Assembly: GCA_017399005.1 (NCBI GenBank)
Contig: JAFQEO010000033.1
Location: forward strand, 1 to 64,000
Length of the DNA stretch: 64,000 nucleotides
DNA from: Peptococcaceae bacterium
GTDB taxonomy: Bacteria; Bacillota; Peptococcia; Peptococcales; Peptococcaceae
Direction: 5' to 3'
Below are positions 40,649 to 51,490 of this stretch, piece after piece (the first letter of the stretch is position 1; every line of letters begins with the position of its first letter). Below the pieces are notes generated by a model. That model saw only the letters and a program-made list of their open reading frames with translations, did not search any database and was not told the origin of the DNA. A program made the translations under genes and the position numbers.

Positions 40649-41941
40649 ATGAAACAGGACATGATTGTTGTTCTTGACCTGGGCAGCACTGAAAATACCG
40701 TTGTTGCTCGCCAGATTCGTGATTTAGGGGTGTACAGTGAAATTCATCCTCATGACATCACCGTAGAAGAATTAAACAAACTGGAAAACGTAAAAGGGAT
40801 TATCTTAAACGGCGGTGCAAACCGTGTTGTTGACGGCGTTGCTGTTGATGTAGCACCAGAAATCTACACCTGCGGTTATCCAGTGATCTCGATTGACCAT
40901 CCAACCGCAAAATGCGAAAAACAGTATGCAGCACTGCTGGACGAAGCAGAAATGAAAGCATTCCTCTTTGATGTATGTAAAGCAGAAGCAAACTGGAATA
41001 TGAAAAACTTTATTGAAGACCAGGTAGAACTGGTGCGTCGTCAGGTTGGCGATAAAAAAGTTCTGCTGGCATTATCCGGCGGGGTAGACTCCTCCGTAGT
41101 AGCAGCTCTGCTGTTAAAAGCTATCGGCGATCAGCTGACATGCGTACATGTAAACCACGGTTTAATGCGTAAAGATGAATCCGAAAGCGTTGTAGACGTA
41201 TTCCGCAACCAGCTGAACGCAAACCTGATTTACGTAGACGCTACCGAACGTTTCCTGGGCAAACTGGAAAACGTGGCTGATCCAGAACAGAAACGTAAAA
41301 TCATCGGCGGCGAATTTATCCGCGTATTTGAAGAAGAAGCAAGAAAACTGGAAGGCATCGATTTCCTGGGGCAGGGTACTATTTATCCTGACATCATTGA
41401 AAGCGGTACCAAAACAGCAAAAATGGTAAAATCTCACCACAACGTAGGCGGTCTGCCTGAAGACCTGCAGTTTGAACTGGTTGAACCATTAAAACAGCTG
41501 TTCAAGGACGAAGTTCGCGCAGCAGGTGTTGAACTGGGTCTGCCAGCACACATGGTATATCGTCAGCCATTCCCTGGACCAGGTTTAGGCGTACGCTGCC
41601 TGGGCGCTATCACCCGTGACCGTCTGGAAGCAGTGCGTGAATCCGACGCAATTCTGCGTGAAGAATTTGCAAAAGCCGGCCTGGACAAAAAAGTATGGCA
41701 GTACTTCACCGTAGTGCCTGACTTCAAATCTGTTGGTATGAAAAACCACCAGAGAAGCTTCGACTACACTGTTATCATCCGTGCAATCAATACCATCGAT
41801 GCTATGACAGCAACCATCGAACGCTTAGACTGGGATATCTTAGAAGTAATCACCAACAGAATTCTGGCAGAAGTTCCAAACGTAAACCGCGTTTGCTACG
41901 ACATGTCTCCAAAACCACCAGCAACCATCGAATTCGAATAA
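40649..41941 (+). CDS. guaA: GMP synthase with truncated, cysteine-less glutaminase domain
   Basis: Aminates XMP to GMP with ATP. The synthetase half is complete: P-loop LALSGGVDSSVVAALL (SGGVDSS at residues 143-149), VHVNHGLMR, GQGTIYPDIIES, HHNVGGLPE, RQPFPGPGLGVRC and the dimerisation end. The amidotransferase half is abnormal. It starts normally (VVLDLGSTENTVVARQIRDL) but jumps from YPVISIDHP near residue 85 to the linker, lacking the GxCxG nucleophile segment and the His/Glu pair. The protein is 430 residues instead of about 510-525. It probably uses free ammonia or a separate glutaminase. The reading frame is intact and the start (ATG 40649) has AAAGGAGA upstream, so it is not a pseudogene. 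Confidence 0.95.
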   Translation: MKQDMIVVLDLGSTENTVVARQIRDLGVYSEIHPHDITVEELNKLENVKGIILNGGANRVVDGVAVDVAPEIYTCGYPVISIDHPTAKCEKQYAALLDEAEMKAFLFDVCKAEANWNMKNFIEDQVELVRRQVGDKKVLLALSGGVDSSVVAALLLKAIGDQLTCVHVNHGLMRKDESESVVDVFRNQLNANLIYVDATERFLGKLENVADPEQKRKIIGGEFIRVFEEEARKLEGIDFLGQGTIYPDIIESGTKTAKMVKSHHNVGGLPEDLQFELVEPLKQLFKDEVRAAGVELGLPAHMVYRQPFPGPGLGVRCLGAITRDRLEAVRESDAILREEFAKAGLDKKVWQYFTVVPDFKSVGMKNHQRSFDYTVIIRAINTIDAMTATIERLDWDILEVITNRILAEVPNVNRVCYDMSPKPPATIEFE

Positions 41942-42059: not shown

Positions 42060-42929
42060 ATGGAACAGCATGATAAAATACAGATTTTTGAAGAGAAGCG
42101 CATCCGAACCGCGTGGGACGAAGAAAAAGAAGAATGGTACTTTTCTATCGTTGATGTGGTGGCAGTACTGACCGACCAGCCTGATCAACGTCGGGCGGCA
42201 AAGTATTGGAGTGTATTAAAAACCCGTCTTAAAAAAGAGGGCAGTGAACTGACTACAAATTGTAGTCAGTTGAAAATGACTGCGTTAGACGGGAAAAAGC
42301 GTATGACAGATGTTGCGGATACCGAACAGCTTTTGCGAATCATTCAGTCCATTCCTTCGCCTAAGGCAGAGCCGTTTAAACTGTGGCTGGCACAGGTTGG
42401 CCGGGAGCGAATCGAGGAAACCATCGACCCGGAACTGACCATTGAGCGTGCGCTGGAAACCTATCTCAAAAAGGGATATACCCGTGAATGGATTAATCAG
42501 CGACTTCAGGCAATTCAGGTTCGCAAAGAACTGACTGACGAGTGGGATGCCCGCGGAGTGCAAAAAGGCGTAGAATATGCTATTCTCACCGATGAAATAT
42601 CCCGTGCGTGGTCTGGAATGTCAACACGGCAGTATAAAAACTTTAAAGGATTGAAAAAAGAAAATCTGCGTGACAATATGACGACGCTGGAGCTTGTACT
42701 GAATATGCTGGCAGAAGCCACTACCACTGAGATTTCAAAGCAAAAAGCTCCAGAAACCTTTTCCGATAATATCGAGGTTGCCCGTGCAGGCGGCAAAGTA
42801 GCCGGTGATGCCCGCAGAGCGATTGAAGTGCAAACAGGAACCCCAGTTATTACATCGAAGAATGCCGCTCAGTTAAATCAGATTGTTACCCGGTTGATTG
42901 AGGGCACTGTTGTGGAAGATAACAGCTAG
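42060..42929 (+). CDS. BRO-N domain antirepressor-like protein
   Basis: A 289-residue protein. Residues about 5-110 match the BRO-N/DinD-like domain found in phage antirepressors and DNA-damage-inducible proteins (IRTAWDEEKEEWYFSIVDVV, YWSVLKTRLKKEG, MTDVADTEQLLRIIQSIPSP, AEPFKLWLAQVGRERIEE). The rest is helical, with GYTREWINQRLQAIQVRKEL and a C-terminal SDNIEVARAGGKVAGDARRA stretch. Related proteins bind DNA or repressors. A stand-alone copy outside a prophage often marks an accessory region, and here it is the left edge of one. AAGGAGG precedes the ATG. Confidence 0.85.
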   Translation: MEQHDKIQIFEEKRIRTAWDEEKEEWYFSIVDVVAVLTDQPDQRRAAKYWSVLKTRLKKEGSELTTNCSQLKMTALDGKKRMTDVADTEQLLRIIQSIPSPKAEPFKLWLAQVGRERIEETIDPELTIERALETYLKKGYTREWINQRLQAIQVRKELTDEWDARGVQKGVEYAILTDEISRAWSGMSTRQYKNFKGLKKENLRDNMTTLELVLNMLAEATTTEISKQKAPETFSDNIEVARAGGKVAGDARRAIEVQTGTPVITSKNAAQLNQIVTRLIEGTVVEDNS

Positions 42930-43919: not shown

Positions 43920-44005
43920 TTTACAAGAGTACTAGAGGTCGAGTTGTAAATAAGTATATTACATTTATAGGGTGTAGTGTGTTTATTTACAGCTCGACTT
44001 TTTTG
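43920..44005 (+). promoter_or_regulatory. Putative attenuator: terminator with competing antiterminator
   Basis: A 16-bp terminator stem (43938-43953 with 43983-43998) is followed by TTTTTTG. Its 5' arm contains TTGTAAA (43944-43950), which can instead pair with TTTACAA (43920-43926). The two structures exclude each other, as expected for a regulated leader. The signal is unknown and matches no riboswitch class I recognise. Confidence 0.6.
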
Positions 44006-44031: not shown

Positions 44032-44508
44032 ATGGGTTACGGAACAAAACCAAAAGCAAAACCAAAAGCAGAAAATTTAACATTTAATAAAGCCAAAAAC
44101 AGCTGGCTGGATTACTGGCGGGGAAAAGTGGGATATCCAAAGGCAAAGAAATTAATTGATATGATACGCAATGATTCTCTGGCAGGGGATAATGAAAAAT
44201 GGGAACAGTGGAAGGCTACACCATTAAAAGAAATGGATGAGGAGTTTGTAAAGTTTACTGTTGAATGTATCAATAACGTGGAAGACGAGGAACTGCGCTC
44301 TGATTTGCTGTTTATGATGAATTCATTTGCATCGTATGTGAATCATAACCTGGTAAAAAATACTACAATTTATTCAATGCTTTTAAAACAGACAATTTTA
44401 ACAGAAATGAGTATTCGTACAGGGTACTATGGTCACGAAGATGACTATGATGAGTACGATCTGGATGAATTGGAGTTTGATGAAACAGAGCCGGAAGATC
44501 AAGGTTAA
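44032..44508 (+). CDS. Hypothetical protein with acidic C-terminal tail
   Basis: 158 residues: a basic, lysine/proline-rich start (GYGTKPKAKPKAEN), a helical middle (about 20-125) and a very acidic C-terminus rich in Asp, Glu and Tyr (HEDDYDEYDLDELEF). No signal peptide or membrane helix. The family is not recognised. AAGGAGG precedes the ATG and the gene is controlled by the leader attenuator described at 43920-44005. The acidic tail recalls those of two other proteins of this island, at 43076 and 50381. Confidence 0.7.
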   Translation: MGYGTKPKAKPKAENLTFNKAKNSWLDYWRGKVGYPKAKKLIDMIRNDSLAGDNEKWEQWKATPLKEMDEEFVKFTVECINNVEDEELRSDLLFMMNSFASYVNHNLVKNTTIYSMLLKQTILTEMSIRTGYYGHEDDYDEYDLDELEFDETEPEDQG

Positions 44509-44637: not shown

Positions 44638-44718
44638 ATGGAATTTTTATTATACTTTGTGGTTGGTTTTGTTACTACTTCGATTTTATATCCACTGTTT
44701 TTTGGAAGTGGAAAGTAA
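44638..44718 (+). CDS. Possible small membrane peptide (26 aa)
   Basis: An ATG at 44638 opens a 26-codon frame, MEFLLYFVVGFVTTSILYPL and six more residues, which would be a single membrane helix. GGAG lies 11 bases upstream, somewhat far. A competing ATG at 44633 in another frame is nearer (six bases) and also gives a hydrophobic peptide. The rest of 44509-44749 holds no other gene. AAGGAGGTACTT at 44510 repeats the sequence before the 44032 start and may mark a decayed gene. Confidence 0.35.
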   Translation: MEFLLYFVVGFVTTSILYPLFFGSGK

Positions 44719-44749
44719 TTTATTACAATATAATTATTAACAAAATGAC

Positions 44750-44788
44750 TTGCATTGCAAACTGTGGTACAATAAATTTACAATGCAA
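44750..44788 (+). promoter_or_regulatory. Extended -10 promoter framed by inverted repeats
   Basis: TGGTACAAT (44765-44773) is an extended -10. It is flanked by TTGCATTG (44750-44757) and its complement CAATGCAA (44781-44788). The left side itself is a short palindrome, TTGCATTGCAA (44750-44760). The arrangement looks like an operator controlling the three-gene HelD-like cluster. Confidence 0.5.
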
Positions 44789-44815
44789 ATAAATGAAAAA
44801 AAAGGCGGTGATATT

Positions 44816-45427
44816 ATGGCAGTCACAAAAAAATCAATTGAATATGAGATTAAAGAAATAAAAGATATGATTGAATATTATGAGCGGCAGATTGTGGGAT
44901 TAAATGAGCGAATTATTGAGAAAAAAGGGTTACTGAACTTATTAAATCAACATGAAAAAAGACCAGTGTCAGAGAAAACGCTATACAAATATATTTCTGA
45001 CAAGACGCATTCGGTGCCATTAATGGATGAGTTTGAAAGTTTGACGGAAGATGGATTTCGTAAGTACGAACGGATAGTAATCAAAAATACGATATGGGGC
45101 AAATTAGGTCGATATCACTTGATTTTAGCGCGAATGAGCGCATTAGAATATGTAGGCGATATAACAATGACTGATTTTAAAAATCAACGTGGAAATTATG
45201 GACTACTGATGGAACATGTCGAATCTGAAGTTGCCAAAGCAAAAGAAAAAACGGCACTTACTAAAGATAGCGAAGTTGTTTTTGAAACACCATTTTTGTT
45301 ACGTGCACAAAATAGTTCCAACAGAACCGGATATGGCAATGAGTATAATGGATATGATTTGGTTCATGAAGGAACTCTTTATGGCGAAACAACAAAATAT
45401 GCTTTTATAGGGGTTGTTATAGATTAA
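44816..45427 (+). CDS. Coiled-coil protein with shared TGYG/GTLYGE C-terminal domain (gene A)
   Basis: 203 residues. Residues about 5-45 are a charged coiled coil (EYEIKEIKDMIEYYERQIVG). A central helical region follows (50-150). The last 50 residues end with SNRTGYGNEYNGYDLVHEGT and then LYGETTKYAFIGVVID. The same ending occurs in the product at 48044 (NQTGYGSIYHRGVLCSQGT, LYGEVTDFLVVGVKVE), so the two proteins share a C-terminal domain. No known family recognised. The start is ATG 44816, with AAAGGCGG upstream. It lies 102 bases before the HelD-like ATPase. Codons favour A/T more than the core genes do. Confidence 0.78.
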   Translation: MAVTKKSIEYEIKEIKDMIEYYERQIVGLNERIIEKKGLLNLLNQHEKRPVSEKTLYKYISDKTHSVPLMDEFESLTEDGFRKYERIVIKNTIWGKLGRYHLILARMSALEYVGDITMTDFKNQRGNYGLLMEHVESEVAKAKEKTALTKDSEVVFETPFLLRAQNSSNRTGYGNEYNGYDLVHEGTLYGETTKYAFIGVVID

Positions 45428-45529
45428 GATAATGCATTGCGGCAGAATAAGATATATTTTGCCGTATGCGATACATAGTAAAGAATATAACATTATAAGT
45501 TTAATGAATATAATTAGGATGAGGAAAAT

Positions 45530-48019
45530 ATGAAAAATGGCAAAATGAATTTTGAAAATCCTATAGACCAAGAAGAATACAACCATTTTGAAAGTATAAA
45601 GCGTTGGCTGGAAAGAGGTATTGAGGCTGCTTCAAAGACATCTGTACAAGCATCTGACCAACGAAAACGATATAATGGTAATGATAAAAATGATATTCCG
45701 CCAATTCTTGAAGCTAATGGAGCTAGGAATGTGTCACAAGAAGATATCGCAATATATCGTAAAGTTTTGTCAGAACCTTATTTTGCTAGATTGGCATATA
45801 GGGAGGTTTATTCAGAGTATACTTTGGATGAAGATATTTATATTGGGAAAGAGATGATACGTGATGATTCTAGCTATGGTTCGGACATATTGATACATTC
45901 ATGGACAAGTGATATTGCCAATGAGCTTTTATATGATAAACGGACGAAGCCTTATGAAAAAATGTTAAAAAAACGTAAAGACCGCCCGTTTGATGACGAC
46001 GAAAAATATATTCTGTATCCAGATTTGCGCCGTATGGTCTTGTCGGAAAAAGGCCGATACATTAGACATATTAATGAATATGTTTCGGACGAGTATGTAA
46101 GACACTATAATTATGGCAATTGGCTAGAAGCCGGGGAACAAATAGCAGATAAATTTTTATTGGATGTTCTAGAACAGAAGAAGAATGAAAATCAAATTAC
46201 AAATATTATTAGGACAATTCAGCAAAACCAGAATACTGTTATTCGATTACCTTTTGCCGAAAACTTTATTGTAGAAGGTTGCGCTGGTTCAGGAAAGACT
46301 ATGATCATGTTACATAGGCTTTCCTATCTGCAGGAAAGAAATTTTATTGCGGATAATAGTACGGTAGTGGTATTGACTCCAAGCGAGGATTTTAATTTAC
46401 AGTTACATTCTCTGATGAAAGACTTGGAAATAGAGAAAATGAATATTAGTAATATGGAGCAATACTATCGTATTCTTTTGAAAGATGTGGATTGGGATGA
46501 GACTGGTAGAGCCAAATTGCATAATGATAATACTTTACCGGATTCATTTGTGAAAGAGATGTATTCTGAAGAAATGCTGGAAAGAATGCAACGAGTACAC
46601 GCTCAGACAGTGGGAAATGTAATTCATGGGAAATTTGCTATTCCGAAAAATGAGATTGAAGTATATGCGGAAAGATTGAGGGTGAAGGCCAGAGTAATTA
46701 ATTATGGCCAGGTGGAAGATTTAATTGCAATATTGGACAGTATTTTACTTGAGCAAATGAATCTGCAGAACTGGATTGATGAGAAAAAACTATTAATTGC
46801 TAATCTGCAACAGACAATTGACAAAGAATATGATGTGAAGAATGAATTACAAACAACGCTGGATAATAATAAAGAAAAGTTTTCCGTATATTTGATAAAA
46901 CTTAAAGAAAAGTTAAAAAAACAATATGAAAAAGAAAAAATAATGGCTAATAGAGGCCGCTTAAAAAGTTTTTTGGATATTGTTTTATCTGCACAGATAG
47001 AAATACAACTTGATGATGAGGACTATGTAGAGTTGGTTAAAGAATGTGCGGCAGCGGCAAATAAAGATAAAGAAGATTCTGAACTGAAGTCCTTATTAGA
47101 TGGTTATTATAAGGCTGTTAATAGGTTACGTAATAGTGAAATGCAAATTGCAAATAATACAAAATATATTGCTGAACAAAGGCAGAGTATTGCAGAAAGG
47201 TCGAAAAACTTATTATCGGATGCTGAAGAAGAACGCGTTGAACGTTACTTTTCTGAGCTGAAAGAAAAAAAGGAACAGTTGCGTGATTACAAACAGCTTT
47301 TTGATACAGAGATTCAGCCGTTTATTAAGAATAAGTGTGAGGAATACGGGGTTAAGCCGATTTTAAATCAGAAATACTATTTGTATTTGAAATTATGTTG
47401 GTATAGTATTAACGGGGGAAAATTACTTGGCAATTATTTAATGTGCATTGATGAAGCACAGAATTTATCAGTGAACGAATATAAACTTTTACAGACGTTA
47501 CACGGCAAACATACAGTTTTTAATTTGTATGGAGATTTATTACAGAACACAAGAGTTGGTTTAGGCATTTCTGATTGGAATGAACTGCAAAAAGCATTAT
47601 TTGTAGATAGTAATGTAAAAATATATACGTTTGCAGAAAATTATAGAAATACCAACCAGATAACAACATTTGTGAATGAAAGACTGAAACTAAAAAATCC
47701 AATGAAAATAATCGGATATGATGGTGCAGATGTGCTAATACGACCAGGAACGATATCTTCGGCATTGGCGGAGGCACGATATGAAAGAGGAAAGACGGCG
47801 GTAATTGTTTCTGAAATTACTAAGGAAATAAAAAAAGAAGCAGAATTACGCGATTTTTCTGTAGGTAAGGTTGATGATGAAGGTGTTGCGGTATTATCTA
47901 TTAATGATGTAAAGGGGTTAGAGTTTAAAACAGTATTTGTTGTGGATGAAGGATTGTCGTATAACGAGAAATATATTGCATATACACGAGCGTTAAATAG
48001 ACTTATTGTTATAACGTAA
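45530..48019 (+). CDS. HelD-like superfamily 1 (UvrD/Rep type) ATPase (gene B)
   Basis: 829 residues. The N-terminal part resembles HelD, the RNA polymerase-recycling motor: IYIGKEMIRDD, then ILIHSWTSDIANELLYD, and later RTIQQNQNTVIRL just before Walker A GCAGSGKT (residues 250-257). Two long coiled coils follow (about 405-480 and 535-590), then Walker B CIDEAQNLS (640), GDLLQ (668), AENYRNTNQ and the closing VKGLEFKTVFVVDEG and YTRALNRL motifs. It is diverged from housekeeping HelD. GAGG precedes the ATG. It sits between two proteins with a shared C-terminal domain, suggesting a three-part complex. A role in transcription control or phage defence is inference. Confidence 0.85.
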   Translation: MKNGKMNFENPIDQEEYNHFESIKRWLERGIEAASKTSVQASDQRKRYNGNDKNDIPPILEANGARNVSQEDIAIYRKVLSEPYFARLAYREVYSEYTLDEDIYIGKEMIRDDSSYGSDILIHSWTSDIANELLYDKRTKPYEKMLKKRKDRPFDDDEKYILYPDLRRMVLSEKGRYIRHINEYVSDEYVRHYNYGNWLEAGEQIADKFLLDVLEQKKNENQITNIIRTIQQNQNTVIRLPFAENFIVEGCAGSGKTMIMLHRLSYLQERNFIADNSTVVVLTPSEDFNLQLHSLMKDLEIEKMNISNMEQYYRILLKDVDWDETGRAKLHNDNTLPDSFVKEMYSEEMLERMQRVHAQTVGNVIHGKFAIPKNEIEVYAERLRVKARVINYGQVEDLIAILDSILLEQMNLQNWIDEKKLLIANLQQTIDKEYDVKNELQTTLDNNKEKFSVYLIKLKEKLKKQYEKEKIMANRGRLKSFLDIVLSAQIEIQLDDEDYVELVKECAAAANKDKEDSELKSLLDGYYKAVNRLRNSEMQIANNTKYIAEQRQSIAERSKNLLSDAEEERVERYFSELKEKKEQLRDYKQLFDTEIQPFIKNKCEEYGVKPILNQKYYLYLKLCWYSINGGKLLGNYLMCIDEAQNLSVNEYKLLQTLHGKHTVFNLYGDLLQNTRVGLGISDWNELQKALFVDSNVKIYTFAENYRNTNQITTFVNERLKLKNPMKIIGYDGADVLIRPGTISSALAEARYERGKTAVIVSEITKEIKKEAELRDFSVGKVDDEGVAVLSINDVKGLEFKTVFVVDEGLSYNEKYIAYTRALNRLIVIT

Positions 48020-48043
48020 TGAAATGTTTGAGAGGTGGCGTAA

Positions 48044-48931
48044 TTGAAAAAAAGAGAGGTTTTATCAAGTGAGGAAACAAAAGCTTTATCGTTGAAGCTA
48101 GAAAATGCTGAAGTAGCGTATAAACAGGCAAAAGAATTATATTATGAAATTAATAATAATGTGTATTCACTAGAATGCGATGTAGAAGAGACACAGGAAG
48201 AAATTGATTCGTTACAAACTCAAATAGAAGAACTAGAACGGAAAAGCCAAGAACTCATGGAAAAGTCCGAAAAACAAAAAATTTTATTGGAAAGCCAACG
48301 TTTTGAATTAGCGCTACAAGAACAAAGACAAAAACAATTGGAAGAAGATAGAGATAGGTTAGAGGAAGCATATGAACAGGCAAAAAAAGATTATGAAAAA
48401 AGTTTTACCAAAGATTTTTTGAATCAAGTTTTTTTATTATCAAACAAAAATTCTATGCAAGTAAATTTGTATGCTGATACGAAGACTACACAGATAATGA
48501 CAGATTTTGAGAAATCGAAAAAAGAGTTTTTATATCTTTATCTTGGTGAACCGAGATTTCTTGTTGAACGGGATAATAAAAAATATTCTGTAAAATGCGG
48601 TTTGATTGTAACTAGAAACTGTGGGGACGTTATTAGAGAAGGCTTGCAACCAACCATGACAAATATAAAAAAATGGGAGGATGATGGAAGGCTTCAGCCC
48701 TTGACAAATGCGATTATATGGGCGTTAGAAGAACAAGAAACAGTGATAGAAGGCGGTGTTTATCCTTTAGGACAACCACACCAAATTGGAGGACAAACAA
48801 AAAGAAACCAAACAGGTTATGGCAGCATTTATCATAGGGGAGTGTTATGTAGTCAGGGTACGTTATACGGAGAGGTAACGGACTTTTTGGTAGTTGGGGT
48901 AAAAGTTGAAAGTATATATGAAACCTGGTAA
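48044..48931 (+). CDS. Coiled-coil protein with shared TGYG/GTLYGE C-terminal domain (gene C)
   Basis: 295 residues. Residues about 10-120 are a long continuous coiled coil (EELERKSQELMEKSEKQKIL and neighbours). The middle (125-235) is alpha/beta with KCGLIVTRNCGDVIREGLQP. The end (about 250-290) repeats the motif of gene A: TGYG, then Tyr, then GTLYGE followed by a hydrophobic VGV strand. The start is TTG 48044, with AGAGGTGG upstream. It begins 24 bases after the HelD-like gene, so it is co-transcribed. No known family recognised. Together with genes A and B it forms the candidate system of this island. Confidence 0.8.
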   Translation: MKKREVLSSEETKALSLKLENAEVAYKQAKELYYEINNNVYSLECDVEETQEEIDSLQTQIEELERKSQELMEKSEKQKILLESQRFELALQEQRQKQLEEDRDRLEEAYEQAKKDYEKSFTKDFLNQVFLLSNKNSMQVNLYADTKTTQIMTDFEKSKKEFLYLYLGEPRFLVERDNKKYSVKCGLIVTRNCGDVIREGLQPTMTNIKKWEDDGRLQPLTNAIIWALEEQETVIEGGVYPLGQPHQIGGQTKRNQTGYGSIYHRGVLCSQGTLYGEVTDFLVVGVKVESIYETW

Positions 48932-49122: not shown

Positions 49123-49416
49123 ATGCAAAAATGGAACAGATACGGAAAACATGATCTATTTGATGACACTATGTTTATGGCTCTGTTAGAGGATGATTCA
49201 GAGTGCTGGTCTCCATGAAAGAAATCCTATAGAAGCCGTTATTCGTCATCTTCTTCCGAAGGGTCAAATTGTTTGCAAAATAATGCGGCTCCAAAGTTTG
49301 ATATTCGCAGCTGGGATGAGAATCATGAGAAAATGGGCAAAGGCGTTACTTTGACTCGTGATGAAGCGGAAGAATTATATGAACTGCTGGGACAGGCTCT
49401 GAAAAAGTGGCTGTAG
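49123..49416 (+). pseudogene. Broken gene: WNxxGKHD N-terminus fused to PC4/YdbC-like end, with in-frame stop
   Basis: From ATG 49123 the frame reads MQKWNRYGKHDLFDDTMF and continues MALLEDDSECWSP before a TGA at 49216-49218. Reading through, it continues to KFDIRSWDENHEKMGKGVTL and stops at TAG 49414. The first 25 residues match the intact neighbour at 50381 (MYDWNGNGKHDSFDDAMFMA). The last part resembles PC4/YdbC-type single-strand DNA binders. There is no ribosome binding site. It is most likely the remnant of a duplicated gene. The preceding 48932-49122 is non-coding apart from a 15-codon open tail near 48955-49002. Confidence 0.65.
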
Positions 49417-50380: not shown

Positions 50381-51490
50381 ATGTACGACTGGAATGGAAA
50401 CGGAAAACATGATTCCTTTGACGATGCTATGTTTATGGCATTGTTGGAAGATGATTTAGAGCGTCATCCGCCAAAAACGGGTAAAAAAACGAGTACAGCG
50501 AAGAAAGTTGCAGACATGAGTCTGGGAGATGTGCTTGTAACAGGTGTAATAGGAGGGCTGATTGCAATACTCTTTATGAGTATTGCCTATGGTTATGCAC
50601 TTGTGGGTATAGGGATAATCATAATTGCAGTTGTGGCAGTTTTTTTGATTGTGGGTGAGCCCGTTAGCAATACATCATCTTCCAGCACATCGTCACAGAG
50701 GCAATATCCACAGACGAATAATGAGCGCGTGCGGGAACGCATGAAAACGATACAGCAGGAAACATCGTACGGGAAAATCATAAAGACCTACGACAAAACT
50801 CTGGTTTTTCAGTTGACTGAGCGATGGAAAAAGCTCGGTGAGGCTTGCCTGTATTATTGTAACTATGAAAAAGAGTATTATATTCAAAAAGTGGATTTTG
50901 CTAAAATTGGAGCCTGTGAGGTCTACTGGGCTGGACGGATTAAAAAAAGTTTTGCAAAAACAGATTTTAAAATTCCTTATGTTGAAAAAGTTCCGAATAA
51001 TGGTCTGGTAATTTATCCGGATGATATGCGTGAGCCGCTGGTAATGGAGATGTATGACACGGAAGAAGTTTATAAAATCGTGTTGTTTATTATTCAGCAT
51101 CCGGAATTGTGGCGTAAGGATACAGCATGGGAAACCATTCTGGAGTTAGAGGTATTTGGAAATACGAAGTCAGATTTTAAAACAGATGTGAAAGCTGCAC
51201 CAAAACCGGAGGCGAAACCGGAATCAAAACAGGTTTCTACACCTGCGAGAAGTACGCATAGTTCTTCTTATACATCAGGGTATATCCCGGTGTATACACC
51301 GAGCTATACATCCAGTTCAATATTGGATGATGAACCGGACGAAACTGTTCGGGAGCGTCTGGACTATGATTTAAGCGGTACAGGCTACGACAGCTATGAT
51401 TTAGAGTGGATGGATGAGGAGGAACGCAACCAGGTTTTAGAGGATAATTTTCTGGATCCGTATGATTATGACTTTGATGATTTGGACTGA
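50381..51490 (+). CDS. Membrane protein with EF-hand-like N-terminus and acidic tail
   Basis: 369 residues. The start, DWNGNGKHDSFDDAMF, resembles a calcium-binding loop (Asp-x-Asn-x-Asn-Gly). Two adjacent membrane helices follow at about 48-90. A soluble domain (about 115-250) contains QLTERWKKLGEACLYYCNYE and PYVEKVPNNGLVIYPDDM. Then comes a Lys/Pro linker and a Ser/Tyr-rich, finally very acidic end (DPYDYDFDDLD). Not recognised as a family. The first 25 residues are repeated in the broken gene at 49123. GAGGAGAG precedes the ATG. It starts 33 bases after the LRR gene and nine bases before the next, so the three are co-transcribed. Confidence 0.75.
   Translation: MYDWNGNGKHDSFDDAMFMALLEDDLERHPPKTGKKTSTAKKVADMSLGDVLVTGVIGGLIAILFMSIAYGYALVGIGIIIIAVVAVFLIVGEPVSNTSSSSTSSQRQYPQTNNERVRERMKTIQQETSYGKIIKTYDKTLVFQLTERWKKLGEACLYYCNYEKEYYIQKVDFAKIGACEVYWAGRIKKSFAKTDFKIPYVEKVPNNGLVIYPDDMREPLVMEMYDTEEVYKIVLFIIQHPELWRKDTAWETILELEVFGNTKSDFKTDVKAAPKPEAKPESKQVSTPARSTHSSSYTSGYIPVYTPSYTSSSILDDEPDETVRERLDYDLSGTGYDSYDLEWMDEEERNQVLEDNFLDPYDYDFDDLD

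Follow-up and report, generated by a model that had tools for sequence, protein, structure and literature searches.

A HelD-like ATPase between two genes of a new domain family: a putative accessory unit in a Peptococcaceae genome

The 64,000 nucleotides analysed here from a Peptococcaceae bacterium (positions 1 to 64,000 of contig JAFQEO010000033.1, hereafter the window) encode what is, as judged from its sequence, a full-length HelD-like superfamily 1 (SF1) ATPase, B, between two genes, A and C, whose products have a C-terminal domain in common (Table 1). The firm result is that this A-domain defines a new family, by which accessory genes in several clostridial defence and mobile loci can be recognised. 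More tentatively, and with somewhat less than even confidence, we read A-B-C as an acquired accessory unit, most likely anti-phage, in which the motor B and the two A-domain proteins would act jointly. The parts recur separately in other genomes, and we hypothesize a single A-B-C system by guilt by association.

Table 1. Features of the A-B-C region and A-domain loci in other genomes
Feature	Position	Strand	Description	Basis
BRO/DinD-like gene	42060..42929	+		PADLOC PDC-S13 1e-137; Bro-N 8e-11; phrog_15286
Gene A	44816..45427	+	203 aa, ATG start, N-terminal helix then A-domain	ORF; AlphaFold2 model
A-domain of gene A	44978..45424	+	residues 55-203	8-member family alignment; model
Gene B	45530..48019	+	829 aa, HelD-like SF1 ATPase	NCBIfam, PDB, clade
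B, putative equivalent of HelD secondary-channel arm	45530..46129	+	residues 1-200	alignment with HelD-like proteins
B, SWT replacing HelD DWR	45899..45907	+	residues 124-126	alignment
B, Walker A	46274..46300	+	EGCAGSGKT	alignment
B, insertion between Walker A and Walker B	46472..47374	+	about 300 aa	alignment
B, Walker B and motifs III-VI	47435..48016	+	CIDEAQN; GDLLQ, ENYRNT, KGLEF, YTRALNRL	alignment
Gene C	48044..48931	+	295 aa, long N-terminal predicted coiled coil then A-domain	ORF
A-domain of gene C	48467..48910	+	residues 142-289	profile of 7 relatives without C, 59.5 bits
G428 (L060) A-domain locus			three-Cys-like gene, HKD-SNF2 helicase, DUF4391, A-domain protein, type III Mod and Res, GmrSD_N gene	
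G671 A-domain locus			hsdM, hsdS, hsdR, then 260-aa A-domain protein, same strand; another PADLOC candidate nearby	
G531 A-domain locus	L066 6420-7809	-	CarD-like gene, A-domain gene, small gene with weak UvrD-tudor match	CarD: PF02559, 5e-12
G430 (Roseburia porci) A-domain locus			prophage; terminase and portal genes before, opposite-strand integrase after	
G431 (Falcatimonas) A-domain locus			region with Rhs-like fragment	
G429 A-domain locus			near AraC-type gene and weak DUF2325 match	

The three genes lie on one strand with gaps of 102 bases (A-B) and 24 bases (B-C), and an ORF check found the positions, lengths and spacing given in an earlier note on this DNA to be correct. The open reading frame of gene A has a formal TTG start at 44750, the ATG at 44816 being preferred; gene C begins with TTG, has GAGGTGG upstream and shows weak SMC/Rad50 coil matches over residues ~10-120. 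All three genes have a GC content of 0.336-0.340 and a GC3 of 0.26-0.29, against a GC content of 0.37-0.54 in the flanking genes, and across the region GC falls to 0.33 at A-B-C from 0.45-0.50 elsewhere. What the earlier note had called a shared A/T-rich style is thus a common foreign-looking composition, which fits joint acquisition; composition alone is no proof of it. At the edge of the low-GC region, 1.9 kb upstream of A, lies the candidate phage-defence gene PDC-S13, the BRO/DinD-like gene of Table 1, a neighbour that is not counted as part of the unit. The promoter and operator previously ascribed to the three genes did not hold up: 30 promoter-like sites were counted against 22.5 +/- 4.5 in shuffles, which is not clearly above chance, and the candidate operator motif TGCATTGC occurs at chance frequency. 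An Rfam RNA search likewise gave results at or near chance. In a look for an empty site, the 1.9-4.5 kb of sequence at hand around priA in three genus relatives contained none of the genes that lie upstream in the window.

Several other elements of the region were recorded in passing. A long and very stable hairpin with a T-run after it (43934-44002, + strand; -36.7 kcal/mol, z -9.0) sits between a MerR-like gene and a 158-aa ORF at 44032; it belongs to no Rfam family and is possibly a terminator or small RNA. A second hairpin, in the A-B gap (45434-45470, + strand), has no T-run after it (-18.8 kcal/mol, z -3.8, for the whole gap stretch) and might tune expression of B. Directly upstream of A is a tiny hydrophobic ORF (44639-44719, + strand; MEFLLYFVVGFVTTSILYPLFFGSGK). 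A GMP synthase at 40652-41941 (+) has a glutaminase part that matches positions 1-78 of the 190-position GATase profile and nothing beyond, possibly reflecting an ammonia-dependent or split GuaA, and the stretch at 49130-49240 (+) looks like a degraded version of the beginning of the gene at 50381 (GKHDxFDDxMFMALLEDD).

HelD drives nucleic acids out of RNA polymerase by means of two arms, of which one occupies the secondary and the other the main channel (PMC7749165, PMC7749167). The proposal that a HelD-like ATPase lies between A and C was confirmed by matches of B to HelD of B. subtilis (PDB 6wvk, 4.5e-14), spanning the N-terminal region and the SF1 core, and to the NCBIfam HelD model at 3.2e-17, the latter below cut-off (61.7 bits versus a curated 419; NF041464). 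The N-terminal region of B aligns over a similar length with the part of HelD that holds the coiled-coil secondary-channel arm, and is a candidate equivalent of it. The insertion between the Walker motifs is placed where HelD has its clamp arm or bumper instead of domain 1B (arm position from PMC7749167), and has no recognisable similarity to that arm. All SF1 ATPase motifs (Walker A, Walker B and III-VI) are intact, and the protein ends right after motif VI. In HelD, the DWR residues anchor the arm and couple it to the ATPase core. According to PMC8655204 the motif is absolutely conserved in HelD; 14/14 other HelD-like proteins have it, while B reads SWT there. Since this defining feature was tested and is missing, B is classed here as HelD-like, short of HelD proper.

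The source genome encodes no HelD-like protein other than B. A HelD profile run against seven other genomes of the genus recovered no HelD; the weak matches cover the C-terminal half only and fall in ORFs of 641-765 and 1184-1230 aa, which we read as probable UvrD and AddA types. A housekeeping HelD was therefore rejected as an identity for B, given the genus genomes searched and the SWT in place of DWR, in agreement with the expectation that the ATPase is not simply the genome's housekeeping copy. Phylogenetically, B forms a clade with two proteins on long branches, from loci L030 (genome G243) and L031 (genome G357), with support of 100/99. The former adjoins a type IV-like PLD-SF2 restriction-type helicase and WYL-type regulators; the latter has a NERD gene with a PADLOC C3a193 helicase on one side and DUF499-DUF3780 genes on the other. 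In L031 (5646-8380, +), the HelD-like ORF appears to have its expected N-terminal arm in the 158-aa ORF before it, with a stop or frameshift between the two. Neither A nor C has a counterpart beside these relatives of B, and degenerate peptide scans for B found nothing. Relatives of A, B and C were also sought in plasmid and phage records (plasmids for A), where a single phage record matched, through its SF1 core (E 3e-7). The earlier note had expected the trio to be found together in other genomes; within the sampling done, including 46 class and 398 phylum genomes for B, it occurs in the source genome only. Its parts do have relatives in defence loci, as anticipated: restriction-modification (R-M) operons for the A-domain and defence islands for the two nearest relatives of B.

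The C-terminal segment claimed to be common to A and C is real and longer than first seen. The two ends align with a BLASTP E of 5e-9 (18/45 identical), and A versus C has a Smith-Waterman score of 101, while none of 5000 shuffles scored above 66. With the last 50 residues left out, direct alignment of the two proteins gave no signal (26, versus a shuffle mean of 28.9). The profile comparison proposed in the earlier note, using seven relatives with C excluded, nevertheless recovered the shared ending and matched C over residues 142-289 (59.5 bits); its N-terminal part, before the last 50 residues, scored 18 bits on C, above the maximum of 5 in 300 shuffles. The unit common to A and C is hence a domain of ~150 aa. 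In the 8-member family alignment it opens with a [ST]-[VIL]-x-x-[LIM]-[MLD] segment (LMDEFE in A), carries TMTxFK mid-domain and ends with N-x-T-G-Y-G-N-x-Y ... E-G-T-x-Y-G-E, a conserved polar face that looks like a putative binding site. The motif TGYG...GTLYG has a look-alike in M23 (lysostaphin-type) peptidases, seen in an M23 contig (L035), and this assignment was rejected; in the family alignment A and C carry E where M23 peptidases have the metal-binding H of YGH.

No fitting family for the A-domain was found in Pfam, NCBIfam, PHROG or PADLOC. An AlphaFold2 model of A (pLDDT 83) comprises a single helix of 43 residues (5-47) followed by an alpha/beta domain, and the family member from G428, modelled alone, reached a pLDDT of 85 and a pTM of 0.82. 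Foldseek searches against PDB and BFVD returned no significant match, and the best VIA-align rows were phage tail terminators with Z of 3.5 or less, within noise; the absence of a significant structural match does not establish a new fold. A clusters with the type I R-M member, the hsdMSR-linked protein of G671 (41% identity, support 85/91), and not with C (23%). Its next closest relative is the type III R-M operon protein of G428 (39%). A and C are thus not the product of a recent local duplication, and the idea that A is a recent copy of C is unsupported.

A strict DNA pattern, TGYG-x2-Y-x8-GTxYGE, run over species-genome and viral collections of about 85,000 species gave true relatives in four genomes (L042, L045, L048 and L049), L036 and L055 being repeat hits of the Roseburia prophage. 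Profile searches covering roughly 1,100 genomes added G531 and G671, for a total of six genomes besides the source. The domain is rare: among 397 other phylum genomes there was no confident match and a single weak one (0.0056), sets of 216 and 348 genomes gave one new case each, and a further 160 genomes gave none. R-M operons account for 2 of the 6 other contexts, a share that appears far above random-gene expectation in a sample that is small and opportunistically found. In G428 the start of the A-domain gene overlaps the end of DUF4391. CarD proteins are a family of RNA-polymerase binders, and the row of CarD-like, A-domain and UvrD-tudor-like genes in G531 is a possible separate RNA-polymerase-linked cluster. 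Small UvrD-tudor-like proteins occur in two A-domain loci, but one lies 7 kb off and Pfam support is weak (0.034). Copies in a prophage, in an Rhs-like region and beside an AraC gene indicate that the A-domain is not confined to defence. Within the stretches read, B-like genes are absent from these loci.

The reading that we favour casts B as an ATP-driven motor on the HelD plan that, once the unit is switched on, would attack and disrupt a nucleoprotein complex, most likely DNA-bound RNA polymerase. The coiled coils of A and C could mediate assembly with each other or with B, and the A-domain would recognise a trigger or target. Because the HelD plan is kept in outline, action on RNA polymerase or another nucleoprotein complex is the most economical guess; RNA polymerase itself is a plausible target, suggested by the architecture of B and by the CarD/A-domain pair in G531. 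From the company that the A-domain keeps (HsdR, Res, SNF2, B and a CarD-like factor) and its fusion to coiled coils here, we infer an adaptor or sensor role. Joint action of the three proteins and their service in defence are likewise what we infer. Since the trio is unique in everything searched, defence is held at moderate confidence and RNA polymerase as the target at a lower one; a conserved system would normally be expected to turn up again, so a single trio counts against a recurring one.

Loss of DWR could also mean that the target of B has changed. If coupling to RNA polymerase was lost with it, the three genes could be a defence unit whose motor works on DNA, B being a translocase or helicase like GajB or the R-M motors and the A-domain proteins recognising DNA or damage. 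The A-domain partners in two other loci are indeed DNA translocases (HsdR, type III Res and HKD-SNF2), and B has weak PADLOC GajB hits (4e-8) confined to its SF1 core. The N-terminal third of B, however, matches HelD and not UvrD or GajB, HelD is reported to be without helicase activity (PMC8655204) and the unit has no nuclease; we consider this reading rather unlikely. It is decidedly unlikely that there is no unit at all, that is, that a stray HelD-like gene and two A-domain genes merely travel together in islands, the A-domain being mobile-element cargo such as an anti-restriction, immunity or phage structural protein. The lack of recurrence, the A-domain copies between terminase/portal and integrase genes of a prophage and near an Rhs fragment, and the very weak likeness to tail terminators are what one would then expect, but the two A-domain genes, which diverged independently, lie on either side of B on one strand, at short distances and with the same composition. 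Next in order, we would give little credence to the boldest form of the favoured reading, a new anti-phage class in which a HelD-type motor strips RNA polymerase off invader DNA under the control of two coiled-coil A-domain sensors, the A-domain serving also as an R-M or CarD-type accessory. Least probable is a housekeeping-like or stress role outside defence, with B recycling stalled RNA polymerase or shielding it from antibiotic and A and C as regulators: HelD and HelR do these jobs (PMC7749165, PMC10719064), and the CarD/A-domain pairing and the standing of B as sole HelD-like protein would suit it, but the foreign composition of A-B-C, the lack of HelD in the other genus genomes searched, the loss of DWR and the defence loci around the relatives in B's clade speak against it.

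If the favoured reading of A-B-C as an anti-phage unit is true, a motor that clears RNA polymerase would be linked to bacterial immunity, a connection that we did not find in the literature searched; nor did that search find a HelD-based defence system. On that reading the A-domain is also a new and testable marker of defence operons that differ in biochemistry (type I and type III R-M and a HelD-like motor), and its presence across them would suggest that they have a recognition or regulatory step in common. Should the trio prove a one-off, the A-domain still offers a new handle on accessory genes in clostridial defence islands.

Among known systems, Gabija (GajA and GajB) likewise places an SF1 ATPase in a defence context. 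GajA is a TOPRIM nuclease encoded next to GajB; in contrast, neither neighbour of B matches GajA, and only the core motifs of B match GajB. The G428 locus, with its HKD-SNF2, DUF4391 and type III R-M genes, resembles A-B-C in having an A-domain protein, but that protein is without a long coiled coil and the 19.8-kb contig has no HelD-like gene. The L030 and L031 proteins share with B a GKTM in Walker A, an end at motif VI and defence-island surroundings; unlike B, they keep DWR and have no A-domain neighbours. HelD class I (B. subtilis YvgS/HelD; PDB 6wvk, 6zca) is a further close parallel. It has in common with B the N-terminal region, the SF1 motifs, a large insert separating Walker A from Walker B and a 2A domain in which no inserted 2B is evident; B differs from it in its sub-threshold profile score, SWT for DWR, a longer insertion, its end right after motif VI and its place in an island between two A-domain genes.
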